Of a stretch of 64,000 nt of DNA, positions 15,290 through 41,693 are shown in pieces (position 1 is the stretch's first letter; each line of letters begins with the position of its first letter). The stretch comes from Clostridium sp. DL-VIII. GTDB lineage: Bacteria; Bacillota; Clostridia; Clostridiales; Clostridiaceae. The notes under the pieces were generated by a model that had not been told where the DNA came from, searched no databases, and saw only the letters and a list, made by a program, of their open reading frames with translations. The stretch spans positions 1,124,501 to 1,188,500 of the forward strand of contig NZ_CM001240.1 in the NCBI RefSeq assembly GCF_000230835.1, in the 5' to 3' direction. The position numbers were made by a program, and so were the translations under genes.

Positions 15290-15805
15290 TTATTTCATTA
15301 GAATTCCTTTTTCATCTAAGGCTGATAACACTCTGTTTAAGATAACTTCATTACTACAGCTAATAGTATGAAGATGAATTCCTTGTGTTAGATTAGAAAG
15401 CAATGGTGAACTGTGTAATTGTGATTTTTTAATAAATTCATCAGCATCATAGCGTGAAAAAATATGCATAGAACCGCAAATTTGACCATATAGTGGATGT
15501 TCTACTGTTACATCTAGAATAGCACCACCATTGTCAATTATTGTATAGATCTCTTTAGATATTTCATTCTTTTTATGATTACAGGCAATTGTTTTTGTAA
15601 GATAATTTGAATTTTCTTTTAGAGTGGTTAGGTATCCGTGCGGGGTTGCTAATATTTCATTGCCTTCTGAACGTAATAATGCAATGTCACCCACAATTAT
15701 TTGCCTGCTTACATTTAATTGTTTTGCTAAGAGGTTTCCACTTATTGGAGTATTGTTATCATATAAAATTTGTTTTATTTTATTACGCCTTTCTAGTGTA
15801 TTCAT
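15290..15805 (-). CDS. niaR: NiaR-type niacin-responsive transcriptional repressor
   Basis: This DNA-binding regulator has a winged-helix HTH_11 domain at residues 1-60 and a 3H domain after about residue 75. The 3H domain keeps the metal and niacin site histidines, in EHPLYG and GIHLHTI. NiaR repressors normally use nicotinate as corepressor to shut NAD salvage and niacin uptake genes. Here the gene lies beside nicotinate catabolism genes, so it may control them or respond to the same pool. The start has a strong GGGGGG site. Upstream DNA contains TAGACA-aaga-TGTCAT, a candidate autoregulatory site. Confidence 0.88.
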   Translation of the reverse strand: MNTLERRNKIKQILYDNNTPISGNLLAKQLNVSRQIIVGDIALLRSEGNEILATPHGYLTTLKENSNYLTKTIACNHKKNEISKEIYTIIDNGGAILDVTVEHPLYGQICGSMHIFSRYDADEFIKKSQLHSSPLLSNLTQGIHLHTISCSNEVILNRVLSALDEKGILMK

Positions 15806-19758: not shown

Positions 19759-20568
19759 CTATGCTACTTTTAATTCTTTCTTTGCATTGTTATAATATTG
19801 TTCTGGTGTTATATAACCGTTTGAAGCGTGTATCCTTTGTCTGTTATAAAATATCTCAACATATTCAAATACAGCTGCACGGGCTTCATCTCGTGTTTTA
19901 AAGTGATTTTCATAAAGCCATTCGCATTTCATTTTTCCCCAAAAAGATTCCATAGGAGCATTATCCCAACAATTACCGTTACGAGACATGCTGCAAATAA
20001 AATTATACTTTTTTATTAAATTTTGGTAATCAGTTGAGCAATATTGAGACCCGCGGTCTGAATGTAAAATAACACCATTAGGCCTTCCAGCGCTATTATA
20101 CGCGTCGTTTAATGCATTAATCACTAAATCTTTTGTCATTCTTTCGCTCATTGATAAGCCAACAATTTTTTGTCCACATAAATCCATTATAGCAGCTACA
20201 TAAAGCCAGCCTTCATCAGTCCATACATATGTAATATCACTAACCATTTTTTCATTGGGTTTCTCCACAGAAAAATCTCTATCAAGAATATTTTTAGCTA
20301 CTGGAAGTTTATGATTTGAGTTAGTAGTAGCCTTAAACTTTTTGCTAACCTTAGATTTTATGCCATTTTCATTCATTAATCGCTCTATACGTTTGTGATT
20401 TATTGGAGGATTCTTGCCATCATTTAATTTTTTTCTGATTTTTATAGAACCATAGACTTTTTTGCTTCCATTGTGGATATCTTTAATTTTTTCTAATAGT
20501 ATTTTATTTGCCTTAGATCTATTGCTCTCAGGCCTTTTATCCCATGCATAATAACTGCTCCTAGACAC
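19759..20568 (-). CDS. IS3-family transposase OrfB (catalytic part)
   Basis: This is the integrase-core part of the IS3 transposase. The DDE residues are in VSDITYVWTDEGWLY, in LHSDRGSQYCS and in PMESFWGKMKCE. The separate frame starts at a GTG at 20568, but the working protein is probably OrfAB. A slippery A7G run at 20669-20676 (minus strand) allows a -1 shift from OrfA. After the shift the frame continues without stop through SGSLLRQEPKIKRFEF into OrfB. The C-terminal end KKELKVA is intact. Confidence 0.9.
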   Translation of the reverse strand: MSRSSYYAWDKRPESNRSKANKILLEKIKDIHNGSKKVYGSIKIRKKLNDGKNPPINHKRIERLMNENGIKSKVSKKFKATTNSNHKLPVAKNILDRDFSVEKPNEKMVSDITYVWTDEGWLYVAAIMDLCGQKIVGLSMSERMTKDLVINALNDAYNSAGRPNGVILHSDRGSQYCSTDYQNLIKKYNFICSMSRNGNCWDNAPMESFWGKMKCEWLYENHFKTRDEARAAVFEYVEIFYNRQRIHASNGYITPEQYYNNAKKELKVA

Positions 20569-20636
20569 TTCTAGAACATTACACAGCTTCGCTATTCGGT
20601 ATTTATTGCAATTAGCCTTGATAAACTCAAACCTCT

Positions 20637-20924
20637 TTATTTTTGGTTCTTGGCGAAGTAGGCTGCCGCTTTTTTTAATATTTCATTTTCTTCTTTAAGT
20701 TCTTTGATTTCTCTTTCCAATTTTTTTAATTTCTCATCTTCAGGTCTAAGGTGTCCGCTACCTGGAAAGGGAGTTTCAGGCGATTCTTTATATTTTTGAA
20801 CCCAGCCATTCATTGTTGTTGGTGCTACTCCTAATTCTCTTGCTACTTTACTTAATTGCTCTCCCGTTTTTTCTAATCTTTTTACTGCTTCTATTTTAAA
20901 TTCCACACTATATTTCTTCTTCAT
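20637..20924 (-). CDS. IS3-family transposase OrfA
   Basis: This 95-residue protein has a helix-turn-helix DNA-binding domain (residues 1-55, including KVARELGVAPTTMNGWVQKY). A leucine-zipper-like coiled coil follows (EDEKLKKLEREIKELKEEN). The frameshift site for OrfAB production lies 13 codons before its stop. The ATG follows GGAAGGATG. Confidence 0.9.
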   Translation of the reverse strand: MKKKYSVEFKIEAVKRLEKTGEQLSKVARELGVAPTTMNGWVQKYKESPETPFPGSGHLRPEDEKLKKLEREIKELKEENEILKKAAAYFAKNQK

Positions 20925-22406
20925 AATATATCATCCTTCCCTCACTTCTAATATACCACGAGTTCCTTGTGTCTATCAAAGTGGGTAAGGGTCACATCAT
21001 TATATCTACGATAACAACGGCAATAGAGGTCAGTTCCAATGCAAGATTTGTGGGCAAAATTTCAACGAAAGTAATTATGTTACTAAGCCTGTAGTACTTG
21101 TATGTCCTCATTGTGGTCATACTCTTTCTCAAAAGAAAGATCGTAAGCATTTTCGCATTCATAAATGTACAAATCCCAAGTGTTCATACTACTTAGATTG
21201 TCTTAAAAGACTTCCTAGTAATATAAAATCTTCTGATAAATATAAATACAAACTTCACTATGTTTATAGAGAATTTATTGTTGATTTCTTTAAGATGAAT
21301 TTACATACACTTTCTAAGCGTGCTATCAACTTTAATTTTAAAAAGTTTAATCCTCATATTATGGGATTATGTTTGACTTACCATGTTAATCTAAAGCTTT
21401 CAACTAGACAAACCGCTCACGCTTTAGCGGAGATACATGCTATAAAAATATCACATACTATGGTTGCTAACTATGCATTAACTGCAGCTGCTGTAATTAA
21501 ACCATTTGTAGATACCTTTGATTACAAACCTTCTAAAATCCTTTCTGCCGATGAAACCTACATAAAAGTAAAAGGCATCAGGCATTATGTTTGGATTGTT
21601 ATGGATGCTTGTAAAAAGTCTATTCTTGGTTATCAGGTATCTGACACAAGAGCTGTTGGTCCATGCATACTCGCTATGCGAATGGCTTTTGATAAGTTTC
21701 AAACATTCCCTAATAAAATGCTAAAATTTATTGCTGATGGTTATAGTGCTTATCCTCTAGCTAGACAACAATTTGAACTAGAAGAAGATAAGATTTTCGA
21801 CCTCACTCAAGTAATAGGACTTACAAATGATGATGCGGTTTCTAAAGAATACCGTTGGGTTAAACAAGTAGTAGAACGCTTAAATCGTACTTTTAAATCA
21901 TCATATCGTGTTACTTGTGGCTATGGGAGTGAAGACGGTGCCCTTTACGGAGTCTCACTTTGGGTTGCGTATTACAACTTTCTGCGCCCACATTCTTATA
22001 ATTATTGGCGGCCTCTAAATGAGATTGATCAATTAAAACAAGCTGATAACATGCCTGCTAAATGGCAAATACTTATTAGCCTTGGTCAGCAAACTATACT
22101 TTATATGCAAGAAAACCAATGCTCATGAGCTCTTGTTAATTTTAATATAGTTTACTTTTTTTGCCTTCGCTAACGGAGGTCTTTTGTTGTTCTCAAAATT
22201 GATTACAATCTTACTAAATCAGATAATTTTAACTAATACTGGCAGCTAATTTTTTATTTCTGTTTTTCATAGCTCACTTTACACTATCTATTTTTATTTA
22301 TCTACTTAAAATTTACAAAAAGCATGGAGAGCTTTACTATTAACTTTAAGTCATAATATGTGCTCACACTCATGCTATTTTTTAAATTATTTCATATAAA
22401 AATATA

Positions 22407-22991
22407 CTATCTTAAACCATCTTCGCCTTTAATTTCACTAACTTGTAACCCACCTATACGAGGATGTGGGCGTCCTCCATTTGTAACAACAAGTGCTACA
22501 ACAATTTCATTATCTTTTGGCGCATCAGGAATTCTAACTTCCATAGCATCATAATGAGTTCTAACAAAAGCAGCATCTTTATAGTGTAAAGGTACATCAA
22601 GAGCTGTTCCAGCGCCACCAGATTTTTTGGATGATGGAATAATTGCTTTACCTCCATTTACTTCTTCACGCATTGGCTTACCTAATTTAGGATGGAGAAT
22701 AGCTGCCCCGTGTTCAAGTTCTCCGTTTAAACCAATAATAGCACCTTTTCCATAACTATTTACTTCACTTTTTTCAATTCCCATGGTTTTTACTGCAATG
22801 GCAGTTAAATATCCTCCAAGGTATTCTCCTATATTACTCAATTCGCTTAAGTCTTCAACGTACTTTCCTGCAAAAGGATTTTTTATTACTGCTGCAACAC
22901 TACATTTTTTTATTGGATTTTCAAGTGATTTAAAACCTTCAAAAAATACTTCTTCTACATTAGTTACAATTTTTCTAATTTCAACATTCAT
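22407..22991 (-). CDS. DUF1185 'amino acid synthesis' family protein
   Basis: This 194-residue protein matches the DUF1185/AA_synth family, with the stretches AAVIKNPFAGKYVEDL, EHGAAILHPKLGKPMRE and KSGGAGTALDVPLHYKDAAFVR. The biochemical function of the family is not established to my knowledge. It overlaps the UPF0280 gene by 11 bases and is the last gene of the ena-hnr-UPF0280-DUF1185 operon. It is therefore probably part of nicotinate breakdown or of a parallel N-heterocycle pathway. No signal peptide or membrane segment is present. Confidence 0.8.
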   Translation of the reverse strand: MNVEIRKIVTNVEEVFFEGFKSLENPIKKCSVAAVIKNPFAGKYVEDLSELSNIGEYLGGYLTAIAVKTMGIEKSEVNSYGKGAIIGLNGELEHGAAILHPKLGKPMREEVNGGKAIIPSSKKSGGAGTALDVPLHYKDAAFVRTHYDAMEVRIPDAPKDNEIVVALVVTNGGRPHPRIGGLQVSEIKGEDGLR

Positions 22992-23853
22992 AATCTTTAT
23001 CTCCTTTTAATTTATTTATAAAATATTCCTTTGGATAGCATAAATATTTATCTTGAACATTAGCTAAAACTCCGTATAAATTTCCTAATTCAAGCTGATA
23101 TTTGCTTTCTTCTTTCATTTGTTCCAATGCCATAGAAATCTCTTTATGAGATAATTGTGAGACACTAACAACTACTTCTAAGTCTTTAATATCACTATCT
23201 GGATCTATATTCCCAGCTTTTACAGTGACGACATTTTTAGATGAAACATAAGATTTATTAGCAATATGAGTAGCTAATGCATCTGCCTGGGTACAGGTTT
23301 TAGCTAATATTGTAACAGCATTAGCTATTCCTTGAGTAAAGCTTCTTCCCCCAAGTCCGCTGGTTGCTATACCGCCTATGGTATCTTCACTGGAAATTGT
23401 AAGTGTGGCATCTATATTATTTGTATTCAAATCTGATAGAACTCCAACGGTAACACTTTCTCCATCAGATAATCTTAAAGCAATGTCACCGCCATTGTTG
23501 ACAATTACTTTTTTTCCTCCACGTTCATAAATCCAGTCTGCAACCTTATCTGACATTATTCCAGCTATTGTTGCCATTGGGGTTAAGTCAGGATTTTTAG
23601 TAATAATTACTGCATCATACATTTTTCTCGATAATCCTTCTAAACAATGAGGATTTATTAAGGAAGGTTTTTGTTTTAAAATATCTAGTGAAATTGAAAG
23701 TTCCTTTAAAGTTATTTCTATAACCTCAAAAGCAGAAACACATAAATCAGTTAATGGTTTTTTGTGATCAAATGCTGATATCACCATGGACACAGGACCA
23801 TAATCAAAAAAAACTTTTCCATCAGATAGTATTTGTATAAATTCAGAATTCAT
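22981..23853 (-). CDS. UPF0280 family protein (ApbE-like fold)
   Basis: This 290-residue protein belongs to the UPF0280 family, distantly related to the flavin transferase ApbE. Visible landmarks are MATIAGIMSDKVADWI, VNNGGDIALRL and TSGLGGRSFTQGIANAVTILAKTCTQADALAT. The last resembles the ApbE threonine/aspartate metal site. The gene starts three bases after hnr ends and overlaps the DUF1185 gene. Hnr of E. barkeri was reported to carry covalently bound flavin, so a flavinylation role for this protein is attractive. That is inference. Confidence 0.8.
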   Translation of the reverse strand: MNSEFIQILSDGKVFFDYGPVSMVISAFDHKKPLTDLCVSAFEVIEITLKELSISLDILKQKPSLINPHCLEGLSRKMYDAVIITKNPDLTPMATIAGIMSDKVADWIYERGGKKVIVNNGGDIALRLSDGESVTVGVLSDLNTNNIDATLTISSEDTIGGIATSGLGGRSFTQGIANAVTILAKTCTQADALATHIANKSYVSSKNVVTVKAGNIDPDSDIKDLEVVVSVSQLSHKEISMALEQMKEESKYQLELGNLYGVLANVQDKYLCYPKEYFINKLKGDKDYEC

Positions 23854-23856
23854 ATA

Positions 23857-25350
23857 TTAGTCCTCTTTTTCAAAGGAATTAATGTCTACAATTTTTTCCA
23901 TATGTCCGCCGATTGCTTCGTAGTCAGCTTTTGTCATTGTGTATTCAACGGGAGCTACAGTAGCTGGAGTAGGAACCCAGGTAAATGCTTTGTTAACTAC
24001 CTTTTCAGTATCTACAATAAAGTTAATTCCTCCACCAGGCATTACAAAGGTTGGCGCGCCGCCAATGGTTAATACTGCTTTTCCTTCATGGACAGCTTTA
24101 GTAACTGCAATAGGATTTACAGCAACACCGCCTCTTGCACTACCTCCAGTTCCACCAACATACATTACAGAAACTTTGGAATCTTCACAGTTATTATATA
24201 TAAGTGTAACTAATTCATCTGCTTCTTTTGTTAATTGAATTTCTTTTATCTCACCATTTTCTAATAATTCAAAAAATGCTCTAGTCTTTCCTGTAGTATC
24301 TGTAACAAGTATTTTCATTCCTATCTTAGCTATGTTCATGTCAAATCCTTTTATAATATCCTTTGGGTTTTTAATTGTTGTCCCACCAATTCCATCGCCC
24401 ATATCTCCAAAATATCTTCCGCGTGAGCTTTTGTTTCCATTTAATATAACTCCGCTCCAAGATAAACCAACCTCTGCTCCAGCTAAATGTTCTGAAAGAA
24501 GACCTATTACATGATGATCAATTACTATTACTTCATCACAAACTTCTTTCATTTTTCTTGCAAAAAGTCCAACAGTAGCACTTCCGCAGCCAACACGCAT
24601 TTTTGTTTCTTCAATACCATCTATGATTGGAGGTAAACCTGTTTTTAATTTTAAAGAAATTTTTTTATTTACAGAAAGATTAACCTCTTCTCCATTGGCA
24701 AGTTCTACTATTGTTTTAGCGACAATAAATCCCTCTTTGGATGTAAGTAGATTAGCACCACCAATGCTTAACATTTTAGAACCATATTCTTCTGTTGATA
24801 CCATTCCTACAATTTTCCCATCACGATAAATTTTATCGCCGGCTTCGCCAATGTGTGAATTTGTATCTAACTTAACTGTGACACCGCTATAACTTAATGG
24901 TGCTTCGGTTACTACAGTTACAACATCAATGCCATTACGATTTTCACTGACAATATGAGGAGCTGGTCTTAAACACGGATATGTAGTTCCAGCTCCAACT
25001 CCAGTTATTATAGGAGTTGCAAGCTTTGGATTTATTTCTGAAACTTTATCATTATTAATAACAAGAGCACGATTACGAACTAAAGTACCATTTTCATTTG
25101 TATAGCGCTTGCAAGCTCCTGTAAATCCTTCTTTTACATGACATTGAATTGGACAAGAACTGCAGACAACGCTTTTTTCTGAAACTGATGATTTTTCTAT
25201 GGCTTTAAATGGACATACACGTATACAAATTCCACATTCTACGCACTTAGCTTCAACCTGTGCTTTTTTATTTTCAACCTTGATAGAATTTAATGGACAA
25301 TTTTTTTCGCAAATTCCACAGCCTTTACAGTTTTCATTAATATTTACCAT
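23857..25350 (-). CDS. hnr: 6-hydroxynicotinate reductase
   Basis: This enzyme would reduce 6-hydroxynicotinate to 1,4,5,6-tetrahydro-6-oxonicotinate with reduced ferredoxin. The N-terminus has two [4Fe-4S] motifs, with cysteines at 8, 11, 14, 18 and at 36, 39, 42, 46. A third cluster of cysteines lies at 63, 66, 70 and 80. The long remainder contains glycine-rich stretches such as MGDGIGGTTIKNP and MYVGGTGGSARGG. I start at ATG 25350, giving 497 residues, close to the size expected for E. barkeri Hnr. An in-frame TTG 15 bases upstream is less likely. The downstream neighbours overlap or abut, so it is operonic with ena. Confidence 0.85.
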   Translation of the reverse strand: MVNINENCKGCGICEKNCPLNSIKVENKKAQVEAKCVECGICIRVCPFKAIEKSSVSEKSVVCSSCPIQCHVKEGFTGACKRYTNENGTLVRNRALVINNDKVSEINPKLATPIITGVGAGTTYPCLRPAPHIVSENRNGIDVVTVVTEAPLSYSGVTVKLDTNSHIGEAGDKIYRDGKIVGMVSTEEYGSKMLSIGGANLLTSKEGFIVAKTIVELANGEEVNLSVNKKISLKLKTGLPPIIDGIEETKMRVGCGSATVGLFARKMKEVCDEVIVIDHHVIGLLSEHLAGAEVGLSWSGVILNGNKSSRGRYFGDMGDGIGGTTIKNPKDIIKGFDMNIAKIGMKILVTDTTGKTRAFFELLENGEIKEIQLTKEADELVTLIYNNCEDSKVSVMYVGGTGGSARGGVAVNPIAVTKAVHEGKAVLTIGGAPTFVMPGGGINFIVDTEKVVNKAFTWVPTPATVAPVEYTMTKADYEAIGGHMEKIVDINSFEKED

Positions 25351-25382
25351 AATAAATATCCCCAATCCTTTAAAAATAAAAA

Positions 25383-26549
25383 TTAAATAATTTTTCCTTG
25401 ACGCTTTGCTGGCGGTGTATTTCTGCTTTTTGACACTTTTATTTCGCCATTAATAAGTACCATGCTTATACCTGGAATATCTCCAGCTTCAAAGGCTTCC
25501 AAAGCGGTATCAGCAATACTTCCCATAGGTGCATCCATAATAACTAAATCGGCTTCTTTACCTACAGCTATTATTCCGGTATTTAACTCATATACTTTTG
25601 CTGTATTTCCAGTTGCCATTGCTACAACTTTATCTGCCGGGATTTCTGAAATCGATGAAATTTGACATATATTTCTAAGAATTCCAAGTGGAATTAGTCC
25701 AGTACCAGATGGAGCATCATTACCAAAAATAATTCTATGAAGCATATTTTTATTTTCAGCTTGTTTTGCTACATAATTTGCAACTTTAGGATTTCCGCAT
25801 TGTACAATTTCAAGAGCAAAACTAGTTTTATCAATGATTTTATCAACTTCTTCAAGGGAAATTGCAGTTGGACCTCCATTAATATGAGAAACTACATCTG
25901 GAGCTGTTGCTATTACGTCTTCTGCAGTTACAGTTGAACTTCCTGGAATTGAAGTTCCTCCAGTATGCATTTGTACTTTAAAACCATATTTATGCGCCCA
26001 TTCTACCATAGGTGCTGCATCTTTAGGAGTATTTACACTCCCAAGACCTATTTCTCCTACAATCCATACTCCCTGTTTTTTTAATTCCTCAAAATCTTTT
26101 TCTACTAAACCTTTTTCTAATATAAGACTTCCACCGTGTACTTTTACACCAGCTGGAGGTGCATTATAAAAAGATTTTGAAGCAAGAATAGCAAGTGCTT
26201 TAGTGCCTTCAGGATCTTTTGGTCTGCCTGGAGTATGGCATTCACCAGCTGAAATCATTGTAGTTACACCACCATGTAGGGCACTAGAAATATAATCTAA
26301 AGTTTTTTGACGTGGTGCAAAATCCCCTAAAGTAGTATGTACGTGAGAATCAATTAAGCCTGGAATAACAGTAGTGTTATTGGCATCAATAATTGTTGCA
26401 TCAGCATTAGAATAAGAAGTTAATAAATCTTCATTACCAATTGCAATTATTTTCTTGTCTTCAATAATTATAGTGTTTTCTTTAAGAATAGGGTTTGATA
26501 TATCTCCGCTTACTATTTCTCCGATATTTTTTATAATAATTGTATTCAT
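25383..26549 (-). CDS. ena: Enamidase (amidohydrolase opening 1,4,5,6-tetrahydro-6-oxonicotinate)
   Basis: This is a 388-residue metal-dependent amidohydrolase. Metal ligands are visible in DSHVHT (histidines 69 and 71), GEIGLG, QMHTGG, SHINGG and the aspartate of FGNDAPSGTG. The sequence is, from memory, very close to E. barkeri enamidase, including ALHGGVTTMISAG and the C-terminal KSRNTPPAKR. Enamidase hydrolyses the tetrahydro-oxonicotinate ring to 2-formylglutarate and ammonia. The start is ATG 26549, with AAGGAGGA upstream; a longer frame would run through the leader hairpin and lacks a good site. It is the first gene of the minus-strand operon. Confidence 0.92.
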   Translation of the reverse strand: MNTIIIKNIGEIVSGDISNPILKENTIIIEDKKIIAIGNEDLLTSYSNADATIIDANNTTVIPGLIDSHVHTTLGDFAPRQKTLDYISSALHGGVTTMISAGECHTPGRPKDPEGTKALAILASKSFYNAPPAGVKVHGGSLILEKGLVEKDFEELKKQGVWIVGEIGLGSVNTPKDAAPMVEWAHKYGFKVQMHTGGTSIPGSSTVTAEDVIATAPDVVSHINGGPTAISLEEVDKIIDKTSFALEIVQCGNPKVANYVAKQAENKNMLHRIIFGNDAPSGTGLIPLGILRNICQISSISEIPADKVVAMATGNTAKVYELNTGIIAVGKEADLVIMDAPMGSIADTALEAFEAGDIPGISMVLINGEIKVSKSRNTPPAKRQGKII

Positions 26550-26591
26550 AGAATATAAGTCCTCCTTAATTAAGATTAATAAATAAAAAAA

Positions 26592-26633
26592 TGACGCTTT
26601 TAAAAATGAAAAATTCATTTTCGAATTAAGCGC
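26592..26633 (-). terminator. Leader attenuator hairpin of the ena operon
   Basis: On the minus strand GGCGCTT pairs with AAGCGTC at the base of a long stem. The stem is extended by AAAATGAA against TTCATTTT and is followed by seven T. It lies about 30 bases downstream of the predicted start of transcription and before the ena ribosome-binding site, so it can only act on the ena transcript's own leader. The sequence AAAAAGCAATGGCGCTT at its 5' side is shared with the ndh leader hairpin. Confidence 0.65.
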
Positions 26634-26670
26634 CATTGCTTTTTTTATGAAAAAATATTTTCCTGCTATT

Positions 26671-26699
26671 AAGTATAGCTATGTTTAAAAATAAAGTCA
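26671..26699 (-). promoter_or_regulatory. Promoter of the ena-hnr operon
   Basis: On the minus strand TTGACT (26699-26694) and TATACT (26676-26671) are separated by exactly 17 bases. This is close to the sigma-A consensus and directed into ena. Confidence 0.75.
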
Positions 26700-26753
26700 A
26701 TCGTAAATTTTAAAATTGCAGATTATGAAAAGTTGTAAAATAGAGCTGAATTT

Positions 26754-26815
26754 ACAGTGTACAGTACAGTTGACTTTACAAGCAAAAATCAGCTGTCAAG
26801 ACAGGTGTAAAGATA
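26754..26815. promoter_or_regulatory. Candidate operator sites between divergent nicotinate promoters
   Basis: Between the two promoters are CTGTC-AA-GACAG at 26793-26804, TTGACTTTACA at 26770-26780 and GGTGTAAAG just after the first. A similar TGTC/GACA arrangement lies upstream of niaR. A regulator such as NiaR or the LysR protein could bind here. This rests on pattern only. Confidence 0.3.
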
Positions 26816-26862
26816 GAAAATAGAAGGTAAAAATTTCAAAATAAAATAATTATAAATCTATA

Positions 26863-26891
26863 TTGACAAGTCCTATTAAAACATTTATGAT
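26863..26891 (+). promoter_or_regulatory. Promoter of the ndhFSLM operon
   Basis: TTGACA at 26863-26868 and TATGAT at 26886-26891 are separated by 17 bases. Transcription would start near 26898, only a few bases before the leader hairpin. Confidence 0.8.
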
Positions 26892-26904
26892 ATGAAAAAG
26901 CAAT

Positions 26905-26949
26905 GGTGCTTTAACAAAAAAATATGTTTTTGTTAAAGCACCTTTTTTT
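26905..26949 (+). terminator. Leader attenuator hairpin of the ndhFSLM operon
   Basis: Sixteen perfect base pairs (26905-26920 with 26927-26942) enclose the loop AATATG and are followed by seven T. No gene lies upstream on this strand, so the hairpin must act within the ndh leader. AAAGCA just before it can pair with TGCTTT in its 5' arm, giving an alternative small hairpin. The 5' sequence AAAAAGCAATGGTGCTT matches the ena leader except for one base. Confidence 0.75.
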
Positions 26950-27006
26950 ATAAAACTGCAAGAAAATATAATATAAAATTCATTATTTTAAAATAGGGGG
27001 CGTGTT

Positions 27007-27879
27007 ATGAAAGAATTTACATATAAATCACCAAGAACTGTAAAAGAGGCGTTAGAATTTTTGAATGAAGCCAATGAAAATACTTATATTGTAGCAGGCG
27101 GTACTGATATTGTAATAGCAATTAACGATGACAGAGTTAATGCTGAACAGGTAATAAACATAAATAAATTAAAGGAATTGAAGTACGTTCAGATAGATAA
27201 AAATGTTGTAAGAGTAGGTGCTCTTTGTACTTTTTCAGAATTAGAAAAAAATTCTTTAATTAAAGAAAATATAAAAGTGCTATATAAAGCAGTTTCAGAA
27301 GTTGGTTCACCTCAAATAAGAAATTTAGGAACTGTTGGCGGCAATATTGTTAATGCATCTGTAGCAGGAGATTCAATTACAGCCTTTTTAGCATTAAATG
27401 CTAAAGTAGTATTAAAAAATTCATATGGACAAAGGGTAATGAGCCTTAGAGAGTTTTATGAAGGAAAAGGAAATTGCCAGATTAAAAAAAATGAATTATT
27501 GACAGAAATTTTTTTTGATAAACCAACTGAAAATATGGCTACTTCCTTTTGTAAACTTGGAAAGAGAAATGCACTTGCTATTGTAGATATTGGTGGTGCT
27601 ATGGTCATAGAAAGAGGTAATAATAACATTTGCACAAAAGCATCTGTTATGGGAGGAGCACTAGCGCGTTATCCATTAGAATTCTTCAATGTGGAAGAAT
27701 TTTTAGTAGGAAAAGAAATCTCAAAAGAAACTTTATATAGCTGCTTTGATTTACTTTCAGAAGCAGTTTATGAAAGCATTAAAAGCAGACCCCTAGAAGT
27801 TGATTATAAAAAAGAAAGTGTAAAAGGTGTATTTAAGACAGTTTTTGATGAAGTTTTAGAATACTTTAAAATTGCATAA
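27007..27879 (+). CDS. ndhF: Nicotinate dehydrogenase FAD subunit
   Basis: This is the flavin subunit (290 residues) of nicotinate dehydrogenase. FAD-binding landmarks are AGGTD near residue 31 and GSPQIRNLGTVGGN near residues 101-115, followed by NASVAGDS. It is the first gene of a four-gene operon whose order F-S-L-M equals that described for E. barkeri. GGGGGCG precedes ATG 27007. The promoter and leader hairpin lie directly upstream. Confidence 0.88.
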   Translation: MKEFTYKSPRTVKEALEFLNEANENTYIVAGGTDIVIAINDDRVNAEQVININKLKELKYVQIDKNVVRVGALCTFSELEKNSLIKENIKVLYKAVSEVGSPQIRNLGTVGGNIVNASVAGDSITAFLALNAKVVLKNSYGQRVMSLREFYEGKGNCQIKKNELLTEIFFDKPTENMATSFCKLGKRNALAIVDIGGAMVIERGNNNICTKASVMGGALARYPLEFFNVEEFLVGKEISKETLYSCFDLLSEAVYESIKSRPLEVDYKKESVKGVFKTVFDEVLEYFKIA

Positions 27880-27895
27880 GAAGGGACTAGGCAAT

Positions 27896-28360
27896 ATGGA
27901 AAAAATAGAAATTTCATTAAATTTAAATGGTGAAAATGTACATATAAAGGTAAATCCAAATAAGAGAGTTGTAGATTTATTAAGAGAAGATTTTAAACTT
28001 ACAAGTGTGAAAGAAGGCTGTGGAGAAGGCGAATGTGGTGCATGTACCATAATATGGAATGGAAATGCAGTTACTTCGTGTACTATGCTAGCAGGTCAAA
28101 TAGATGGTGACAGAATTATTACATTAGAAGGTCTAAGTAAAAATGGTGAATTAGATAAACTGCAGGAAACTTTTATAGAGGCAGGTGCAGTACAATGTGG
28201 TTATTGCACTCCGGGCATGATATTGTCTGCAAAAGCATTGCTTATGAGAAATCCTCATCCAACAAAAGAAGAAATTAGACGAGCAATGTCAGGTAATCTT
28301 TGCAGGTGCACAGGATATGCAAAAATAATTAAAGCAGTAGAACTTGCCATAGAAGATTAG
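27896..28360 (+). CDS. ndhS: Nicotinate dehydrogenase 2Fe-2S subunit
   Basis: This two-cluster iron-sulfur subunit has 154 residues. Cysteines 42, 47, 50 and 62 form the first cluster, and QCGYC and CRCTGY the second. The start is ATG 27896, behind AAGGGA. An in-frame TTG 24 bases earlier lies inside ndhF and is not needed. It transfers electrons between the molybdenum subunits L/M and the FAD subunit F. Confidence 0.88.
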   Translation: MEKIEISLNLNGENVHIKVNPNKRVVDLLREDFKLTSVKEGCGEGECGACTIIWNGNAVTSCTMLAGQIDGDRIITLEGLSKNGELDKLQETFIEAGAVQCGYCTPGMILSAKALLMRNPHPTKEEIRRAMSGNLCRCTGYAKIIKAVELAIED

Positions 28361-28423
28361 GAAAGGGGAAAATTTTTTATATTTTAACCATTAAAGTTAG
28401 CTATAAAAAATTTAATTTAGTTT

Positions 28424-29698
28424 ATGGATGATTTTGTAGTAATAGGAAAAAGTGTTGTGAAAAAGGATTCTCTTCATAAGGTGCTGGGAAAAACCAAATT
28501 TGCGGGTGATATGGAATTTGAGAATATGTTATATGGTGAAGTTGTAAGAAGTACTGTTGCTTCAGCTTATATAAAGAAAATTGATACAAGTAAGGCTTTA
28601 AAGTTAGATGGTGTAATAAAAATTTTAACTTATAAAGACATTCCGGGGAAAAATAGAATAGGAATTATCTTAAAGGATGAGCCTGTTTTAGTGGATGATA
28701 AGGTTAGAAGGATTGGGGATGCAATAGCTTTAGTGGCTGCTAAAACAAAGGAAATAGCAAGAAAAGCAGCTGGATTAGTAGAAATTGAATATGAGGAAAT
28801 AGAACCTATTTTTTCTTTTGAACGTGCAATGGAAGAAGATTCACCTAAAATACATGGAACAAGCAATATCTTAAATAAGAAAACTTTAGTTCACGGTGAT
28901 ATTGATAAAGGATTTGAACAATGTGATGTTATAGTAGAAAACACTTATAAAACTTCCAGACTTTCACATATGTTTATAGAACCAGAAGCAGGAGTCGCTA
29001 AATATGAAAATGGAATAATAACAGTTTATAGTTCTACGCAAAATCCTCATTTTGACAGAGGCGAAATAGCTTCAACCTTAAATTTCCCTAATAATAGAGT
29101 GAGAAGTATACAAGCTACTACTGGTGGTGGATTTGGTGGGAAATTGGATATTTCAGTACAATGCCATTTAGCATTGCTTGCATATTACACAGAAAGACCA
29201 GTAAAAATGGTAAGAAGCAGAAAAGAGTCAACTTGTGTTTCTTCAAAAAGGCATGCAATGACGATGACAGCACGAACAGGAGCGACTAAAGATGGAAAAA
29301 TATTAGCCCACCATGTAATAATGACAGCAGATACTGGTGCATATGCTTCTTATGGACCTGCTGTTGTTACAAGAGCTATGGTTCATTGTACTGGACCATA
29401 TATGATACCCAATGTAAGGGTAGAGACAACTTTTGCATATACTAACAATCCAATGGGAGGAGCATTTAGAGGTTTTGGAGTGCCTCAGGTAGCAGTTTTA
29501 CATGAAGGGCAGATAGAAGCCCTAGCTAAAAAATTAAATATAGATTCCATTAAATTAAGATTACTAAATGCACAAAAAGTTGGAAGCGAAACTGCAACAG
29601 GACAAATATTAAAAGATAGTGTGGGATTAGTAGAATGCATTAATAAGGCTGTAGAAAAAGCAAATGAAGTAATGAAATGTGAGGTGATGGAAAAGTGA
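28424..29698 (+). CDS. ndhL: Nicotinate dehydrogenase large molybdopterin subunit (N-terminal half)
   Basis: This 424-residue protein corresponds to the first half of an ordinary molybdenum hydroxylase large subunit. It contains the a/b hammerhead domain and the first molybdopterin domain, with [11 protein letters not shown] near residue 230 and [11 protein letters not shown] near 345. The second half is a separate gene, ndhM, exactly as in E. barkeri nicotinate dehydrogenase. No clear Shine-Dalgarno sequence precedes ATG 28424, which is unusual in this window. Its close paralogue at 37768 is unsplit. Confidence 0.88.
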
Positions 29699-30687
29699 AG
29701 AAGAGAGGAAAAGGAATTGGATGTATGTGGTATGGCATTGGCAATACAGGTCTTCCTAATCCATCCGGTGCATTTATTGAAGTATTGCCTGATGCAACTG
29801 CCAATTTACTTGTAGGCTGTGCAGACATTGGACAAGGTTCTACAACGGTTATGGCACAGATTGCAGCAGAAGAATTGGGCTTACGTTATGATGATATTCA
29901 TGTGATTAGCGCAGACACAGGTGTTACTCCAGAAGGTGGGGCAACATCTGCAAGTAGACAAACCTTCATATCAGGGAATGCAACGAGAAATTCCTGCAAA
30001 ATGGCAAAGAAAACTTTAGGAGAAGTTGCAGCTGATTTCTTAAAAGTTCATATAGAAGATTTAATTTTTAAAGATAGAGAAATATATTTTAAAGAAGATG
30101 AAACTGTAAAAATGTCTTATGATGAATTAATGTCAGAAATGAAAAAGTTAGGTAAACTGGCACTAGGAGCAGGCTCCTACAATCCAAATACAACTTATTT
30201 AGATGATGAAACTATGGGTGGAATACCTTTTGAAGTGTATTCATATGCAGCAACAGTTGTTGAGTTAGAAGTAGATACGGATACAGGTAAAATAGAAGTA
30301 TTAAAAGTTGTTTCTGCCCATGACGTAGGGCAGGCAGTTAATGAAAAAATGATAGAAGGACAAATTGAAGGTGGCTGCGCTATGGGGCAGGGATTTGCTT
30401 TATTGGAAAAGATAATTGTAGAGAATGGAACAATATTAAACCCGCAATTCTCAAAATATTTAATTACAACAGCATTAGATACACCGGAAGTTTATCCTAT
30501 AATTGTTGAAAGCAATGCCTCAGCAGGACCATTTGGGGCAAAAGGAGTTGGAGAGCCAGCGTTGATCCCAATTATACCGGCTATTGTAAATGCTGTTGAA
30601 GATGCTATAGGAATTCATTTTTATGAACTGCCAATTACGCCAACAGATGTAATCAAGGAATTAAAGCAGCAGAATCAAACTCAGTAA
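29695..30687 (+). CDS. ndhM: Nicotinate dehydrogenase medium molybdopterin subunit (C-terminal half)
   Basis: This 330-residue protein is the second molybdopterin domain. It contains CADIGQGS near residue 43, [18 protein letters not shown] near 66, and the catalytic region [13 protein letters not shown] near 282. It starts at GTG 29695, overlapping the ndhL stop by four bases, with GAGGTG upstream. L and M together align end to end with the 754-residue protein at 37768. In E. barkeri this enzyme contains labile selenium, which agrees with the maturation genes nearby. Confidence 0.9.
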
Positions 30688-30832
30688 TGGATATTTGAAA
30701 AAATTCAGATATAATTATCAATTAAAAATCCAGAAAGGAGTAAAATAATAAATTTACTAAAGGGGAGGTTTTGAATAATAAAGCAATAAGTATGAACAAA
30801 ATTTTAATACATAATTAAGGGGGATTTTATTA

Positions 30833-32212
30833 ATGGAAGAATTACAACGCAATGATACATTATCTTCAAAAAAGCTTATTTCACGTATGGAAAATTTTCC
30901 GGTAGGAAAATTTCATTACAAATTATTAAATATTAATGGTGCTGCCTGGGCATTTGATGCCTTTGACGTAGGTATAGTTACATTTATTGTTGCAGCACTT
31001 ACAAAGTCTTGGAATTTAACAACTGGACAGGTAAGTATATTTTTAAGTGTTGGTTTATTTGGAATGCTCTTTGGAGCAAGCATTTCAGGTGCTTTAGCAG
31101 ATCGATTTGGGCGTAAATCTGTATTTAAGGTTACTATGCTTCTTTATTCGATATGTTCACTAATTTGCGCTATTGCACCGAATTACACATTTCTTTTAAT
31201 TGCTAGATTTTTTGTAGGAGTAGGTCTTGGTAGTGAAACACCTATTGTTACAGCTATTTTAGGTGAATTTATTCCAGCTTCAAGGCGAGGAAAAGTTCAG
31301 GGATTACTTGATACGTTTTGGGCAGTAGGATGGCTTGCGTCAGCAGTAATAGCTTATTTTGTTATTCCAACAGTAGGATGGAGATGGACCTTTGTTATAG
31401 GTGCTATGCCGGCTTTCTTTGTTTTTGTAATTCGTAGACATTTACCGGAATCTCCAAGATGGTTAATATCAAAAGGTAGAATAAAAGAAGCCGAAGAAAT
31501 TGTAAATAATATAGAAGAAACACTAATTACTCAAGGCTTATCAATTCCGGAAGTAAAAATAGAACAAATTTCTGATAATAAAAGAGAAGTTATCAATAAA
31601 AAAAGCGGTATTGGATTATTATTTTCTAATAAATACTGTAAAGCAAGTGTTATGCTTTGGGGAGTATGGTTTTTTGTGTTCTTTGGATATTATGGATTGT
31701 TTTCTTGGATGCCATCTATTTTTGTAAAAGCTGGTCATAGTATGGTTCAATCTTTTTTCTATGTTTTAATTATGCAGATAGCATTTGTTCCTAATCAATT
31801 TATTTGTGCTTATCTTATGGATAAAATAGGACGTAAGACAGTACTTGGTACTAATTTATTATTATCGGCACTAGCTACTATAGCATATGGATTGGCTTTT
31901 GGAAGTGGTGTTAGTTCAACAATAGTAGTGATTTTAGGTGCTTTAACATCATACTTTGTTTCAGGTATTTTTGCAGTTATTTATACATATTCACCAGAGT
32001 TATATCCAACCAGTGTGCGTGCTACTGGAGTTGGTGCAGCATCTGCAGTTTCACGTGTAGGATCAATGCTTGCGCCAATTGTTATTGGATATGGTTTGAC
32101 ATCTGTTGGTATAACAGGGGTATTTGCAATAGTAGCAGTATCTTTTGTTTTAGGTGCAGTGTTTGTATGGGTTCTTGGGACTGAAACTAAAGGAGTAATA
32201 TTAGAAGATTAA
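30833..32212 (+). CDS. niaP: MFS transporter, NiaP-type nicotinate uptake
   Basis: This is a 459-residue, 12-segment major facilitator. The N-terminal AWAFDAFDVGIVTFIVAAL, the loop motif ADRFGRKSVFK, the FWAVGWLASAVIAYFVIP segment and PELYPTSVRATGVG resemble, from memory, the NiaP niacin transporter. It follows ndhM by about 145 bases and is preceded by AAGGGGGA. It is the logical uptake system for the nicotinate pathway. A general metabolite:proton symporter is the alternative. Confidence 0.75.
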   Translation: MEELQRNDTLSSKKLISRMENFPVGKFHYKLLNINGAAWAFDAFDVGIVTFIVAALTKSWNLTTGQVSIFLSVGLFGMLFGASISGALADRFGRKSVFKVTMLLYSICSLICAIAPNYTFLLIARFFVGVGLGSETPIVTAILGEFIPASRRGKVQGLLDTFWAVGWLASAVIAYFVIPTVGWRWTFVIGAMPAFFVFVIRRHLPESPRWLISKGRIKEAEEIVNNIEETLITQGLSIPEVKIEQISDNKREVINKKSGIGLLFSNKYCKASVMLWGVWFFVFFGYYGLFSWMPSIFVKAGHSMVQSFFYVLIMQIAFVPNQFICAYLMDKIGRKTVLGTNLLLSALATIAYGLAFGSGVSSTIVVILGALTSYFVSGIFAVIYTYSPELYPTSVRATGVGAASAVSRVGSMLAPIVIGYGLTSVGITGVFAIVAVSFVLGAVFVWVLGTETKGVILED

Positions 32213-37291: not shown

Positions 37292-37765
37292 ATGACAGAA
37301 AAAGTTCAAATTCAATTTACACTTAATCAAAAAAAAGTTTCTTTAGAAGTTGCGGCAAATCGCCGTGCAGTTGATGTTATAAGAGAAGACCTTGACCTTA
37401 TAGGTACTAAAATTGGATGTGGTGAAGGAGACTGCGGAGCCTGCACGATTATTATTGATGGAAAAACAGCTAACTCATGCTTAGTGATGGCACCACAGCT
37501 TGATGGAAAAGATGTGATGACTATAGAAGGATTAGGCACTTATGACAAGCTTCATGAACTTCAACAGTCTTTTATAAATGAAGGTGCTGTACAATGCGGT
37601 TTTTGTACGCCTGGAATGTTATTGTCAGCCAAAGTACTGCTTGATAATAATCCTAAACCTAATCGACAGGAAATCATGGAATCAATATCAGGAAATTTAT
37701 GTCGCTGCACAGGATATGAGAAGATTGCTAATGCTATCGAAAATGTTGTAAATAAGGAGGAATAA
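37292..37765 (+). CDS. Xanthine dehydrogenase-like 2Fe-2S subunit (set 4)
   Basis: This 157-residue iron-sulfur subunit has intact motifs CGEGDCGAC, QCGFC and CRCTGY. A strong AAGGGG site precedes the ATG. It opens an operon of four genes: FeS subunit, Mo subunit, HD-domain protein, FAD subunit. Only two bases separate it from the Mo-subunit gene. Sequence is closest within this window to ndhS and to the set 1 subunit. Confidence 0.92.
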   Translation: MTEKVQIQFTLNQKKVSLEVAANRRAVDVIREDLDLIGTKIGCGEGDCGACTIIIDGKTANSCLVMAPQLDGKDVMTIEGLGTYDKLHELQQSFINEGAVQCGFCTPGMLLSAKVLLDNNPKPNRQEIMESISGNLCRCTGYEKIANAIENVVNKEE

Positions 37766-37767
37766 AC

Positions 37768-40032
37768 ATGGAAGAGTTATCTGTAGTAGGAAAAACTATT
37801 ATTCGTAAAGATGCTTTAGATAAAGTACTAGGTAAAACTCGTTTTAGTGCAGATATAAAAATGTATGGTATGCTGTATGGAAAGGTATTGCGTAGTAAGA
37901 TTGCACACGGATTTGTTAAAAAAATAGACATTAGCAAGGCTGCTGCGTTACCAGGAGTTCATGCAGTGCTAACTTCAAAGGATGTACCAGGACTAAATGG
38001 ACATGGCATTATTTTTAAGGATGAACCTGTACTTGTAAGTGATAAAATTCGAAAAATAGGTGATGGCCTGGCTGTTGTTGCTGCTGAAAGTGAAGAAATA
38101 GCAAACCAAGCAATTAAACTTATTGAAGTCGAGATTGAAGAAATTCCAGGAGTATTTGATCCTGTAGAGGCTATGAAAGAAGATGCACCTAAGGTTCATG
38201 GAGACAATAATATTTTGGCGCTGAGAAAAATAATACGAGGAAATATTGATGAAGCATTTAAGAATGCTGATATTGTTGTTGAAAATGAATACCATACCCA
38301 AATGCAGGAACATGCGTATCTTGAACCGGAAGCTGGAATTGCTTATATGGACAATGATGTTATTGTTATAAAAGCATCAACTCAAAACACACATTTTGAT
38401 TGTCGTGAAATTGCTCGTAATTTAGCTATGCCTCAAAGTCGAATTAGGATGATTCAAGCTCCTACAGGTGGAGGTTTTGGTGGTAAACTCGATGTTTCAG
38501 TACAAATTTATTTAGCTCTTTTAGCATTAAAAACTCGACGTCCTGTAAAGATTGTTTATTCTAGAGAAGAATCGATTATTACTTCTTCTAAGAGGCATCC
38601 GTGCATTATTAAGTATAAAACAGCAGCTGATAAGACAGGAAAGCTTTCAGCTATTGATGTGAATGTAGTGGCTGACACTGGTGCATATTCATCATATGGC
38701 CCCGCACCTATAACTCGTCTAGCAGTCCATGCTGCTGGTCCTTATGATGTACCTAACGTTAAAATTTATGCATATACAGTTTACACAAACAATCCAACTG
38801 CGGGTGCTATGAGAGGATTTGGTGTACCACAAATAGCATTTGCTTATGAGCAGCAAATGGATATGATTGCAGAAAAAGCAGGAATTTCATCTTTAGAAGT
38901 TCGTTTGCGAAACACTCTAAAAAAAGGTAGTATGACATCAACGGGGCAAGTAATGAATATTGAAGGTGATATAAGTGGTACACTAGTTCCGGCATATGAT
39001 AAATTAATGGAAAATAGATGCAAGAAAGTTTTAGCTCCATATAAAAAAAGAGGTATTGGAATGGGGTGCTTATACTTTGGTATTGGGAATACCGGACAGC
39101 CAAATCCAGCTGGTGCATTTTTAGATGTAATGGAAGATGGAAGTGCAAATTTGATGGTTGGTGCTGCTGATATGGGGCAAGGCTCAAATACTATTTTAGC
39201 ACAAATTGCAGCTGAAGAACTAGGAATTGATTTTTATGATATCAAAGTTATTTCAGCTGATACTGGAGTTACACCTGATGGAGGTGCATCTTCAGCAAGC
39301 AGACAGACATATATTTCTGGAAATGCAGTTTTAGAGGCAGCTAAAGCAGTTAAAAACATATTTGTTAATGAAGTGGCAATCTGGCATAATGTTTCGCCGC
39401 AAGTTGTTACATTAAAAAATAAAGCTGTATTTATAAACGGTGAATCTACGGATATTACTGTGCCACAATTGGTGTCTAGATGCAGGGGGAAAGGAATTAT
39501 GACTATTGGACATGGAGGATATAATCCAACTACTACAGCGTTAGATGAAGAAACAGGTCAAGGTGAACCTTATGAAGTATATTCATTTGCAAGTCAGGTT
39601 GCAGAGGTTGAGGTTGATACTCAAACTGGTCAAATTGATGTGTTGCGAATTGTGGCAGCTCATGACGTTGGGCAGGCAGTAAACCCGTTGCAAGTTGTAG
39701 GACAAATTGAAGGTGGTACAATAATGGGCCTTGGCTATGGTTTGTTTGAAGAAGTAAAAAAATCCAATGGTAAGATACAAAATCCTTCTTTTGCTACATA
39801 TGTTATTCCTACAGCTGTAGATATCCCACCTATCGATTCGATTATCGTAGAAGAAAAGGCAAATACAGGACCGTTTGGAGCAAAAGGATTAGGAGAACCT
39901 CCATTAGTTCTGCCGGCAGCTGTTATAGCAAATGCTATATATGACGCAATTGGCGTTAGAATTCATTCATTGCCGATTACTCCGGAAAAGGTATTAAAAG
40001 CCATAGAAGAAGCACGAAAACAAGGTAAATAA
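37768..40032 (+). CDS. Xanthine dehydrogenase-like molybdopterin subunit (set 4)
   Basis: This full-length catalytic subunit has 754 residues. It contains [11 protein letters not shown] near residue 232, GAMRGFGVPQ near 349, ADMGQGSNTILAQ near 468 and GPFGAKGLGEPPL near 700. In the FRGFG position a methionine-arginine pair (AMRGFG) is seen instead of phenylalanine-arginine; the arginine is kept. It aligns with NdhL plus NdhM of this window. The substrate may be a purine or another N-heterocycle. AAGGAGGAA precedes the ATG. Confidence 0.9.
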   Translation: MEELSVVGKTIIRKDALDKVLGKTRFSADIKMYGMLYGKVLRSKIAHGFVKKIDISKAAALPGVHAVLTSKDVPGLNGHGIIFKDEPVLVSDKIRKIGDGLAVVAAESEEIANQAIKLIEVEIEEIPGVFDPVEAMKEDAPKVHGDNNILALRKIIRGNIDEAFKNADIVVENEYHTQMQEHAYLEPEAGIAYMDNDVIVIKASTQNTHFDCREIARNLAMPQSRIRMIQAPTGGGFGGKLDVSVQIYLALLALKTRRPVKIVYSREESIITSSKRHPCIIKYKTAADKTGKLSAIDVNVVADTGAYSSYGPAPITRLAVHAAGPYDVPNVKIYAYTVYTNNPTAGAMRGFGVPQIAFAYEQQMDMIAEKAGISSLEVRLRNTLKKGSMTSTGQVMNIEGDISGTLVPAYDKLMENRCKKVLAPYKKRGIGMGCLYFGIGNTGQPNPAGAFLDVMEDGSANLMVGAADMGQGSNTILAQIAAEELGIDFYDIKVISADTGVTPDGGASSASRQTYISGNAVLEAAKAVKNIFVNEVAIWHNVSPQVVTLKNKAVFINGESTDITVPQLVSRCRGKGIMTIGHGGYNPTTTALDEETGQGEPYEVYSFASQVAEVEVDTQTGQIDVLRIVAAHDVGQAVNPLQVVGQIEGGTIMGLGYGLFEEVKKSNGKIQNPSFATYVIPTAVDIPPIDSIIVEEKANTGPFGAKGLGEPPLVLPAAVIANAIYDAIGVRIHSLPITPEKVLKAIEEARKQGK

Positions 40033-40043
40033 GGGGGGTTTAT

Positions 40044-40604
40044 ATGCTACCTACATTACCAGAAATTTTAGATATTTATACAGAAAAAAAGCTCCCAAGC
40101 ACTGTTGTTGAACATAGTATAGCAGTTGCTTATGTTGCAGTTAGTATTGCAAAATGTATTATATCAAGTCAAGGTTTAACACTTGACATACAAGCTTTGA
40201 CAGCTGGAGGGCTGCTTCACGATGTTGAAAAATTTCAGCCTAATCATGCAGCAAGGGCAGCGGAACTTGTTACAAGGTTAGGCTATTCTTCTTTGGCACC
40301 AATGATAGCTACTCATATGGATCTTGTTTTCCATGAATATGATCCATTGAATGAATCAGCGATTTTATATTTAGCAGATAAAATATGCAAGGGTTCCAAA
40401 TTTGTTACTTTGGAAAAGCGTTTAGAAGAAAGCATTCAAACATATGGAGATTTATCTAGAATTCGCGGAAGGTTTTCTACAGCATTTGCAATACGTGAGA
40501 AAGTTTTGGAATTAGTAGATATAGAATATGTTCCTTTGAAAGAATTAATAATGTGGAAAATAATCAAAAAATATACAATGAGAGGGAGATTATATGAGTT
40601 ATAA
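40044..40604 (+). CDS. HD-domain phosphohydrolase-like protein within the hydroxylase operon
   Basis: This 186-residue soluble protein has the HD metal site: VEHS near residue 23, LLHDVEK near 60, ATHMDL near 92 and YLADKI near 112. Such proteins hydrolyse phosphate esters of nucleotides or related molecules. It lies between the Mo and FAD subunit genes and overlaps the FAD gene by 11 bases, so its synthesis is coupled to the enzyme. A role in cofactor handling or in removing a nucleotide by-product is conceivable. No function is known to me. Confidence 0.78.
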   Translation: MLPTLPEILDIYTEKKLPSTVVEHSIAVAYVAVSIAKCIISSQGLTLDIQALTAGGLLHDVEKFQPNHAARAAELVTRLGYSSLAPMIATHMDLVFHEYDPLNESAILYLADKICKGSKFVTLEKRLEESIQTYGDLSRIRGRFSTAFAIREKVLELVDIEYVPLKELIMWKIIKKYTMRGRLYEL

Positions 40605-41463: not shown

Positions 41464-41541
41464 GTTGGGTGGTATTTTCCGTATAGCGTAGAAATTTTTT
41501 TATCAATAATTTATTGAGCCTTTATGTAAATGCTGTAATTA

Positions 41542-41570: not shown

Positions 41571-41693
41571 GGTTACAGTTCATAATTAGTATATGTATTT
41601 ATATAATTAATCATAATGTGACGTTATTATTGCAAATTATATAGATATATTAATGTGTTAGAATTTAAATAATATTTAGAGGAGAGGATGTTT

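Follow-up and report, generated by a model that had tools for sequence, protein, structure and literature searches.

The two leaders between the divergent nicotinate operons of Clostridium sp. DL-VIII are very probably targets of ANTAR antitermination, with the NitR homologue of this organism as the probable effector, as judged from sequence comparison within the genome and across its relatives. Both lie in the window, the stretch of 64,000 nucleotides that we analyzed (contig NZ_CM001240.1, positions 1,124,501 to 1,188,500). A preliminary description of this DNA had not recognized the arrangement; it is recognizable as an ANTAR-type hexaloop antiterminator that carries one hexaloop instead of two. 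The features of the region, in window coordinates, are the following.

15290..15805, − strand: NiaR-like regulator (HTH_11 and 3H), in the nicotinate cluster
22407..26549, − strand: ena operon, encoding an amidohydrolase (enamidase-like), a ferredoxin-type protein (6-hydroxynicotinate reductase-like), and ApbE/UPF0280-like and AA_synth proteins
26585..26637, − strand: predicted intrinsic terminator, imperfect, from folding, at about 26637-26590 with T7 at 26591-26585, overlapping the antiterminator
26628..26641, − strand: predicted antiterminator hairpin AAGC[AATGGC]GCTT, hexaloop 26637-26632
26672..26700, − strand: ena-hnr operon promoter, TTGACT-17-TATACT (-35 26700-26695, 17 nt, -10 26677-26672), 10/12 consensus positions
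26789..26808, no strand assigned: TCAGCTGTCAAGACAGGTGT, located between the ena and ndh promoters and fitting TGT-N4-ACA, the type I NiaR box
26863..26891, + strand: ndh operon promoter, TTGACA-17-TATGAT (-35 26863-26868, 17 nt, -10 26886-26891), 11/12 consensus positions
26898..26911, + strand: predicted antiterminator hairpin AAGC[AATGGT]GCTT, hexaloop 26902-26907, with A1 and G4
26905..26949, + strand: predicted intrinsic terminator, stem 26905-26942 (16 bp), T7 26943-26949, its 5' arm overlapping the antiterminator
27007..32212, + strand: ndh operon, encoding a molybdenum hydroxylase (FAD, 2Fe-2S and two molybdopterin subunits) followed by a major-facilitator transporter

The proteins of the ena operon matched NCBIfam models below their cut-offs, and its pathway names follow those of Eubacterium barkeri. 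We take the ndh operon to encode a putative nicotinate dehydrogenase and NiaP, names in part carried over from the preliminary description. Its molybdopterin subunit appears as two overlapping frames (28424-29698 and 29695-30687), presumably resembling the large and medium subunits of the E. barkeri nicotinate dehydrogenase. Several further molybdenum hydroxylase gene sets are present in the window (894-12065 and 37292-57177), whose neighbours we read as putative selenium and molybdenum-cofactor genes, and transposase-like genes, identified by translation, adjoin the ena operon at 19759-22128.

The sequence features of both leaders proposed earlier were borne out. The near-consensus promoters match 11 (+) and 10 (−) of the 12 consensus positions, and terminator-like hairpins with seven T follow soon after, their arms starting 13 nt (+) and about 34 nt (−) past the -10 element. 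Both leaders share one layout, in which the promoter is followed by AAAGCAATGGYGCTT and then by the intrinsic terminator with its seven T. The sequence common to the start of both hairpins is a 17-mer, AAAAAGCAATGGTGCTT at 26895-26911 on the + strand and AAAAAGCAATGGCGCTT on the − strand, the − copy having C for T. Throughout the 6.48 Mb genome, exact copies of the 16-mer AAAAGCAATGGYGCTT occur only at these two leaders, and a search allowing up to two mismatches listed 19 other matches, each with one or two mismatches. The + leader folds at -21.1 kcal/mol (z -5.1), with none of 200 shuffles as good, and the − leader at -17.5 kcal/mol (z -3.6), with one of 200 shuffles as good. The + hairpin was also listed by a simple terminator scan, from which the − leader hairpin was absent, the − strand entry of that scan being the antisense of the + hairpin; the − terminator is thus an assignment from folding. 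The small competing AAGC/GCTT hairpin suggested in the preliminary description folds alone at -3.9 (+) and -3.0 kcal/mol (−); the lowest-energy fold predicted for the + leader has an additional pair between loop bases 1 and 6. At the gathering score, the only Rfam match in the window was a tRNA at 59141, and a permissive scan of 26500-27050 gave chance-level matches only, with no curated riboswitch or cis-regulatory family.

The element AAGC[AAUGGY]GCUU forms a hairpin whose six-base loop has A at position 1 and G at position 4. ANTAR targets have been defined by a hexanucleotide loop with A at position 1 and G at position 4 on a short stem (PMC3369931), and the window hexaloops AATGGT (5 pairs) and AATGGC (4 pairs) show these features. 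In both leaders the hexaloop also overlaps the intrinsic terminator: the right half of the hairpin, GGYGCUU, doubles as the left terminator arm, and the two folds are therefore mutually exclusive. Each leader contains the one-hexaloop minimal binding unit of the 2022 definition (PMC8934654), and neither carries the two tandem hexaloops of the 2012 definition.

A search of the genome yielded a single ANTAR protein, which is NitR-like (75 bits). Its gene lies directly after glnA (Pfam) and before a gltB-like gene; the gltB-like and gltD-like genes were read from their translations. The PDB matches of NitR are Rv1626, EutV and NasR, the first and last being named in part after the depositors' labels. 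RNA-contact residues are described for EutV, including Y164, which stacks on G4 (PMC8934654). Six of the seven are identical in the alignment with NitR (R142, K143, K147, K149, E160 and M172), and Y164 is replaced by Phe; the numbering carries a shift of two, as the Asp of LMDIQM is chain position 56 in the alignment and Asp54 in the paper. The phosphate-accepting Asp is absent from the NitR receiver (PDLVLVGY), and Gly also occupies this position in the 12 other same-genus proteins that we read. Lacking this residue, NitR is probably switched by other means, as AmiR is controlled by AmiC (PMC8934654). NitR of C. acetobutylicum has been described as an antiterminator of ammonia assimilation (PMC4676874), and NitR of C. 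saccharobutylicum as an ANTAR protein that antiterminates and induces the GS/GOGAT genes on nitrogen limitation (PMC6316151, citing Stutz 2007).

Two observations were made at ANTAR genes themselves. For some relatives (L169, L176, L188, L191) the nitR start codon falls within a hexaloop hairpin; we set this candidate aside, as the nitR of DL-VIII reads GATGGC there and the likeness is likely a by-product of the ATG. Within the genus g12 (L126, L127, L128, L129, L130), AAGC[AATGGC]GCTT with a terminator-like hairpin lies directly past the stop codon of the glnA-linked ANTAR gene, possibly for self-regulation or as a sponge.

Leaders of the same kind recur elsewhere in the DL-VIII genome. The glnA-nitR operon has two hexaloop-terminator units in tandem, TGAC[AACGGA]GTCA and TTGAGC[AAAGGC]GTTCAA (locus L134, about 9421 and 9170, − strand). 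Others precede the gene of a 697-residue glutamine synthetase, here named glnN by us, its matches to NCBIfam glutamine synthetase models being below cut-off; the EutA-permease-EutB genes (AAGT[AATGGT]GCTT); a nitrilase-like gene, whose match to the Nit6803 nitrilase model (NCBIfam) is below cut-off; and a GntR gene with that of an amino-acid-binding protein, in an amino-acid transport operon. In the eutA frame (L122, 3158-4150) the Pfam EutA match begins only at position 137 and the leader lies 588 nt upstream; the 5' part may be broken, or the start may lie elsewhere. Three own-genome matches with terminator-like sequence (L250, L269, L270) were rejected by eye for want of a hexaloop stem. 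Relatives have a hexaloop with terminator ahead of urease genes with a urea-type transporter (L124), of a PucR operon (L123) and of further genes; gene labels for L123 and L124 were checked with Pfam, the remaining ones being read from translations. By these annotations the genes with leaders share the theme of nitrogen acquisition, with some of the relatives' operons of uncertain function.

The long shared sequence fared less well as a marker. A family-wide search for the exact 15-mer found nine other places, of which one, L009 in genome G013, is a leader and eight lie by eye in or beside coding sequence. Since exact copies are mostly not in leaders, the conserved unit is the hexaloop with its terminator and not the long motif. 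Within DL-VIII, a one-mismatch copy at 2825557 (L003) was also discarded as a leader, having no terminator downstream.

For glnN, loci were picked by protein, which avoids selection by motif only, and the 30 best loci were analyzed. Imposing A1, G4, at least 4 pairs and a T run, we found a hexaloop leader in 25 of them, with A2 in 25/25 and G5 in 24/25, both positions having been left free. Under somewhat different rules (A1, A2, G4, G or A at position 5, a C-G closing pair and at least 4 pairs) a hexaloop and terminator fold was present at 28 of the 30, with loop position 3 being T in 12, A in 11, C in 4 and G in 1; a further picking rule used A1, A2, G4, C-G or T-G closing and at least 4 pairs. 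A 29th leader, with a U-G closing pair, was recognized by eye at L291, and the one remaining locus, L298, has no hexaloop leader.

The covariation analysis of aligned leaders that the preliminary description had called for showed compensating changes in the stem pairs. Our alignment A1 joined 25 glnN leaders with the two window leaders (L277, L278, L289 and L302 being left out and L298 having no leader); loop positions 3 and 6 and the kinds of pair were free, and the other picked features imposed. Its five stem pairs are 97.7% paired, falling to 23-49% when the partners are slid, and because picking already required at least 4 pairs, the evidence lies in the kinds of pair and not in the pairing itself. 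The covariation score was 0.542 against 0.232 in shuffles (0/500), and 19 cells were changed on both sides against a shuffle mean of 5.0 (0/500). Two of the five measures were not extreme, namely the pairs changed on both sides (4 vs 2.3; 20/500) and the further pair types (9 vs 7.6; 70/500). In an earlier control, of 36 strong-terminator matches, 30 were paired at position 3 and 28 at position 4 (shuffles 18.6 and 17.3). The corresponding counts for 61 matches without a scored terminator were 43 and 44 (shuffles 30.3 and 25.7), a group that is not a clean negative, since it holds missed true leaders (glnN, the window − leader, g12) and loci from longer, pairing-imposing patterns; we give this control no weight.

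The distribution of the leaders follows that of ANTAR genes. We ran the pattern GCAATGGNGC-N10-40-T5 on 206 family genomes, 124 of which have an ANTAR gene, and counted co-occurrence in 77 of these, G000-G076, for which places were listed. Genomes with a terminator-coupled hexaloop numbered 26 of 55 with an ANTAR gene and 0 of 22 without (Fisher P 2.6e-5, uncorrected for relatedness and genome size); by place, the counts were 50/86 and 0/15 (Fisher P 1.8e-5, likewise uncorrected). Terminators were judged by folding the matched strings. The pattern match of the window + leader ended at an inner T run, so its string was used at full length; leaders elsewhere whose match ended in this way (e.g. 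in G050) were scored as misses. Within the same set, 29 of the 55 ANTAR-positive genomes had no terminator-coupled match of the pattern used. One genome, G053 (a 1.5 Mb assembly, 90% complete), has no ANTAR gene found, yet carries a glnN leader, GAAGAC[AACGGC]GTTTTC, with a strong fold (L292); either the gene is lost from the incomplete assembly or this is a leader without ANTAR, and given this case the split is imperfect.

Leaders at nicotinate operons of other genomes are few. We scanned 69 of 71 ena loci, leaving out the weak relatives L119 and L120, and found a hexaloop (A1/G4) with terminator directly before ena at 3: TAGC[AACGGA]GCTA in Hespellia (L052) and CACAC[AATGCC]GTGTG in Pelosinus (L059) and a Bacillota MAG (L061). 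The latter two genomes also carry a hexaloop leader before a 502-residue hnr-like gene. Altogether the scan gave 16 intergenic matches in 12 loci, comprising the 3 before ena, 2 at the hnr-like genes, 1 before the 2Fe-2S subunit gene of L059, and 10 that are probably chance. At some loci (L057, L080) a coding frame reaches nearly to ena, so that a missing leader there is weak evidence, and in some scanned loci a gene other than ena stands first. All three leader-bearing nicotinate genomes have ANTAR genes, as do 11 of the 12 nicotinate genomes examined; as such genes are this common, their presence proves little.

Compared with known ANTAR terminator leaders, these differ in the number of hexaloops. 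The eut leaders of E. faecalis EutV have the same A1/G4 hexaloop, short stem, terminator overlap, ANTAR protein and nitrogen theme, but two hexaloops instead of one (PMC3369931); the closing pairs A27-C28/G35-U36 were mutated there, whereas closing pairs here are mostly GC/GC. EutV receives its phosphate from EutW, but the accepting Asp is missing in NitR. The AmiR and NasR leaders likewise serve ANTAR antitermination of nitrogen genes, and AmiR also has a pseudo-receiver, but they have two hairpins and a different sensory input (PMC3369931, PMC8934654). The C. saccharobutylicum NitR is the same kind of protein, an ANTAR antiterminator inducing GS/GOGAT on nitrogen limitation; its targets as cited in PMC6316151 are GS/GOGAT, and the likely regulon here adds nicotinate, ethanolamine, nitrilase-like and transport genes.

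The strongest of the alternatives is that the leaders are ordinary dual-hexaloop ANTAR targets whose second hexaloop was overlooked, on a longer transcript from an upstream promoter or as a weak hairpin. Published ANTAR terminator leaders have two hexaloops, with a linker of 5-12 nt in E. faecalis eut, and the EutV ANTAR domain no longer bound once the second stem-loop was deleted (PMC3369931); according to the 2022 EutV-RNA structure, termination is prevented only if the dimer contacts one hexaloop after the other (PMC8934654). We searched 33 leaders chosen by hand for a second hexaloop. Of the matches from which they were chosen, L194 (a PTS-type operon with a weak T run), L200 and L225 (the same leader as L203) had been dropped; the window − leader, L138, L140, L196, L202, L213 and L223, missed by the scorer, had been added by eye; L212 was kept as a dual control, and the g12 loci were kept apart. 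L212, the eut leader of a relative about 1.5 kb from its ANTAR gene, showed the dual form (ACAC[AATGGT]GTGT and AAGC[AATGGG]GCTT), which the scan thus detects where it is present; as a canonical dual eut leader it ties the motif to a known ANTAR target. Some leaders do carry a second ANNGNN hexaloop with at least 3 pairs, upstream in 6 of 33 (2.8 expected, and one of the six being L212) and in 4 of 28 glnN leaders, and downstream in 3 of 33. However, no second hexaloop was detected upstream or downstream of either window leader, and an AT-only glnN candidate, TTA[ATTGAA]TAA, reads ATTAAA by eye in L284, L285, L286 and L290, with G4 lost.

The promoter positions also argue against this alternative. 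Of the 33 leaders, 20 have a promoter of at least 10/12 no more than 50 nt from the loop, a score reached by 58 of 1280 shuffles (4.5%), and in 10 of 33 the -10 of such a promoter ends at most 20 nt before the loop, so that the RNA starts almost at the hairpin and leaves no room for a second hexaloop. We thus regard an overlooked second hexaloop as unlikely, and one hexaloop appears, on the comparative evidence, to be enough in these leaders; that they operate singly is the reading to which we incline. As the 2022 paper holds both hexaloops to be needed, such leaders are an exception to that view, or a test of it. In the same paper a single hexaloop becomes the unit of binding, and both computational and experimental study of single-hexaloop sites is urged; its authors expect such sites where the transcribing polymerase sets no time limit, whereas here they apparently work in attenuation (PMC8934654). 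A search of the PMC literature found no description of single-hexaloop leaders of this kind; the supplementary tables of PMC3369931 may list clostridial sites.

Another possibility is that AAGC-N6-GCTT acts as a DNA operator, a repressor site at the start site to which the terminator-like hairpin would be secondary. The motif is palindromic and near the predicted start, and the DNA-binding NiaR-like protein is encoded nearby. Against this, the conserved core runs on into the terminator arm of otherwise variable sequence, its loop lies anywhere from 10 to 50 nt from the best -10 among the 33 curated leaders, and motif plus terminator tracks an RNA-binding domain, with the exception of G053. The NiaR-type box, moreover, sits elsewhere in the intergenic region. 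We consider an operator at the motif very improbable.

This box suggests a further level of control. The type I NiaR box has the consensus TGT-N4-ACA, and NiaR is described as a niacin-dependent repressor (PMC5343564, PMC7713382). TGTC-N2-GACA occurs once in the window, at 26789-26808. The genome has two 3H proteins, one being the NiaR-like protein of the window, and no TGTC-N2-GACA was found in the 7 kb surrounding the other 3H gene. The box is a candidate for a possible second, substrate-related input, and from the sequence we infer two inputs, nitrogen via NitR and niacin via the NiaR-like protein. Separately, a terminator with GAC[AAAGAT]GTC lies at 15885 (−), between a transporter gene and the NiaR-like gene, and could be an ordinary terminator or another leader.

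That the leaders sense nicotinate or another metabolite directly, as a tiny riboswitch, is suggested by their presence on both nicotinate operons, but the motif also precedes glutamine synthetase, ethanolamine and nitrilase-like genes and a relative's urea genes, and with merely 4-5 stem pairs, 6 loop bases and no Rfam match we consider this highly doubtful. The coordinated attenuation of both operons proposed in the preliminary description, by an RNA-binding protein favouring the AAGC/GCTT hairpin, is supported by the comparative evidence; a nicotinate signal more likely comes from elsewhere than the leaders, for example from the NiaR-like protein. Least credible of all is a chance likeness of two 5'-UTR hairpins through local duplication of the intergenic region, as the leaders are about 265 bp apart but differ in their flanks and in the arms past GCTT, and the core recurs in other operons and genomes.

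ANTAR antitermination by NitR thus remains the preferred reading, supported at the sequence level by the promoters, the two alternative folds, the shared motif, the distribution with ANTAR genes and the nitrogen theme; we infer NitR binding, read-through and the sense of the signal. With plentiful nitrogen, the nascent GGYGCUU arm would fold into the terminator and transcription would end after about 50-90 nt. Upon nitrogen limitation, the NitR homologue would hold the AAGC[AAUGGY]GCUU hexaloop hairpin, which would keep GGYGCUU from the terminator and let the polymerase read into ena-hnr and ndh-transporter. As the leaders are common to glutamine synthetase, ethanolamine and nitrilase-like genes and a relative's urea/urease genes, the likely signal is general nitrogen status via NitR, and the switch shared with the glnA-nitR, second glutamine synthetase, ethanolamine, nitrilase-like and amino-acid transport operons would make nicotinate use one arm of a NitR regulon.

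Taken together, we favour, with some reserve, a model in which the clostridial NitR, a pseudo-response-regulator, runs a genome-wide nitrogen-scavenging regulon via single-hexaloop antiterminators at or near the 5' start of the transcript, where nicotinate fermentation would be licensed by nitrogen shortage and the NiaR-like protein would add a substrate signal. The two unrecognized leaders are thereby explained, and the anaerobic nicotinate pathway gains a likely regulator. A search for dual hairpins such as that of 2012 would presumably miss leaders of this kind, so clostridial ANTAR regulons may exceed the catalogue. The leaders are natural single-hexaloop candidates for ANTAR attenuation, making the question raised in 2022 testable (PMC8934654), and if the model is true, a single hexaloop would suffice as a full co-transcriptional switch, contrary to the current view that both are needed.
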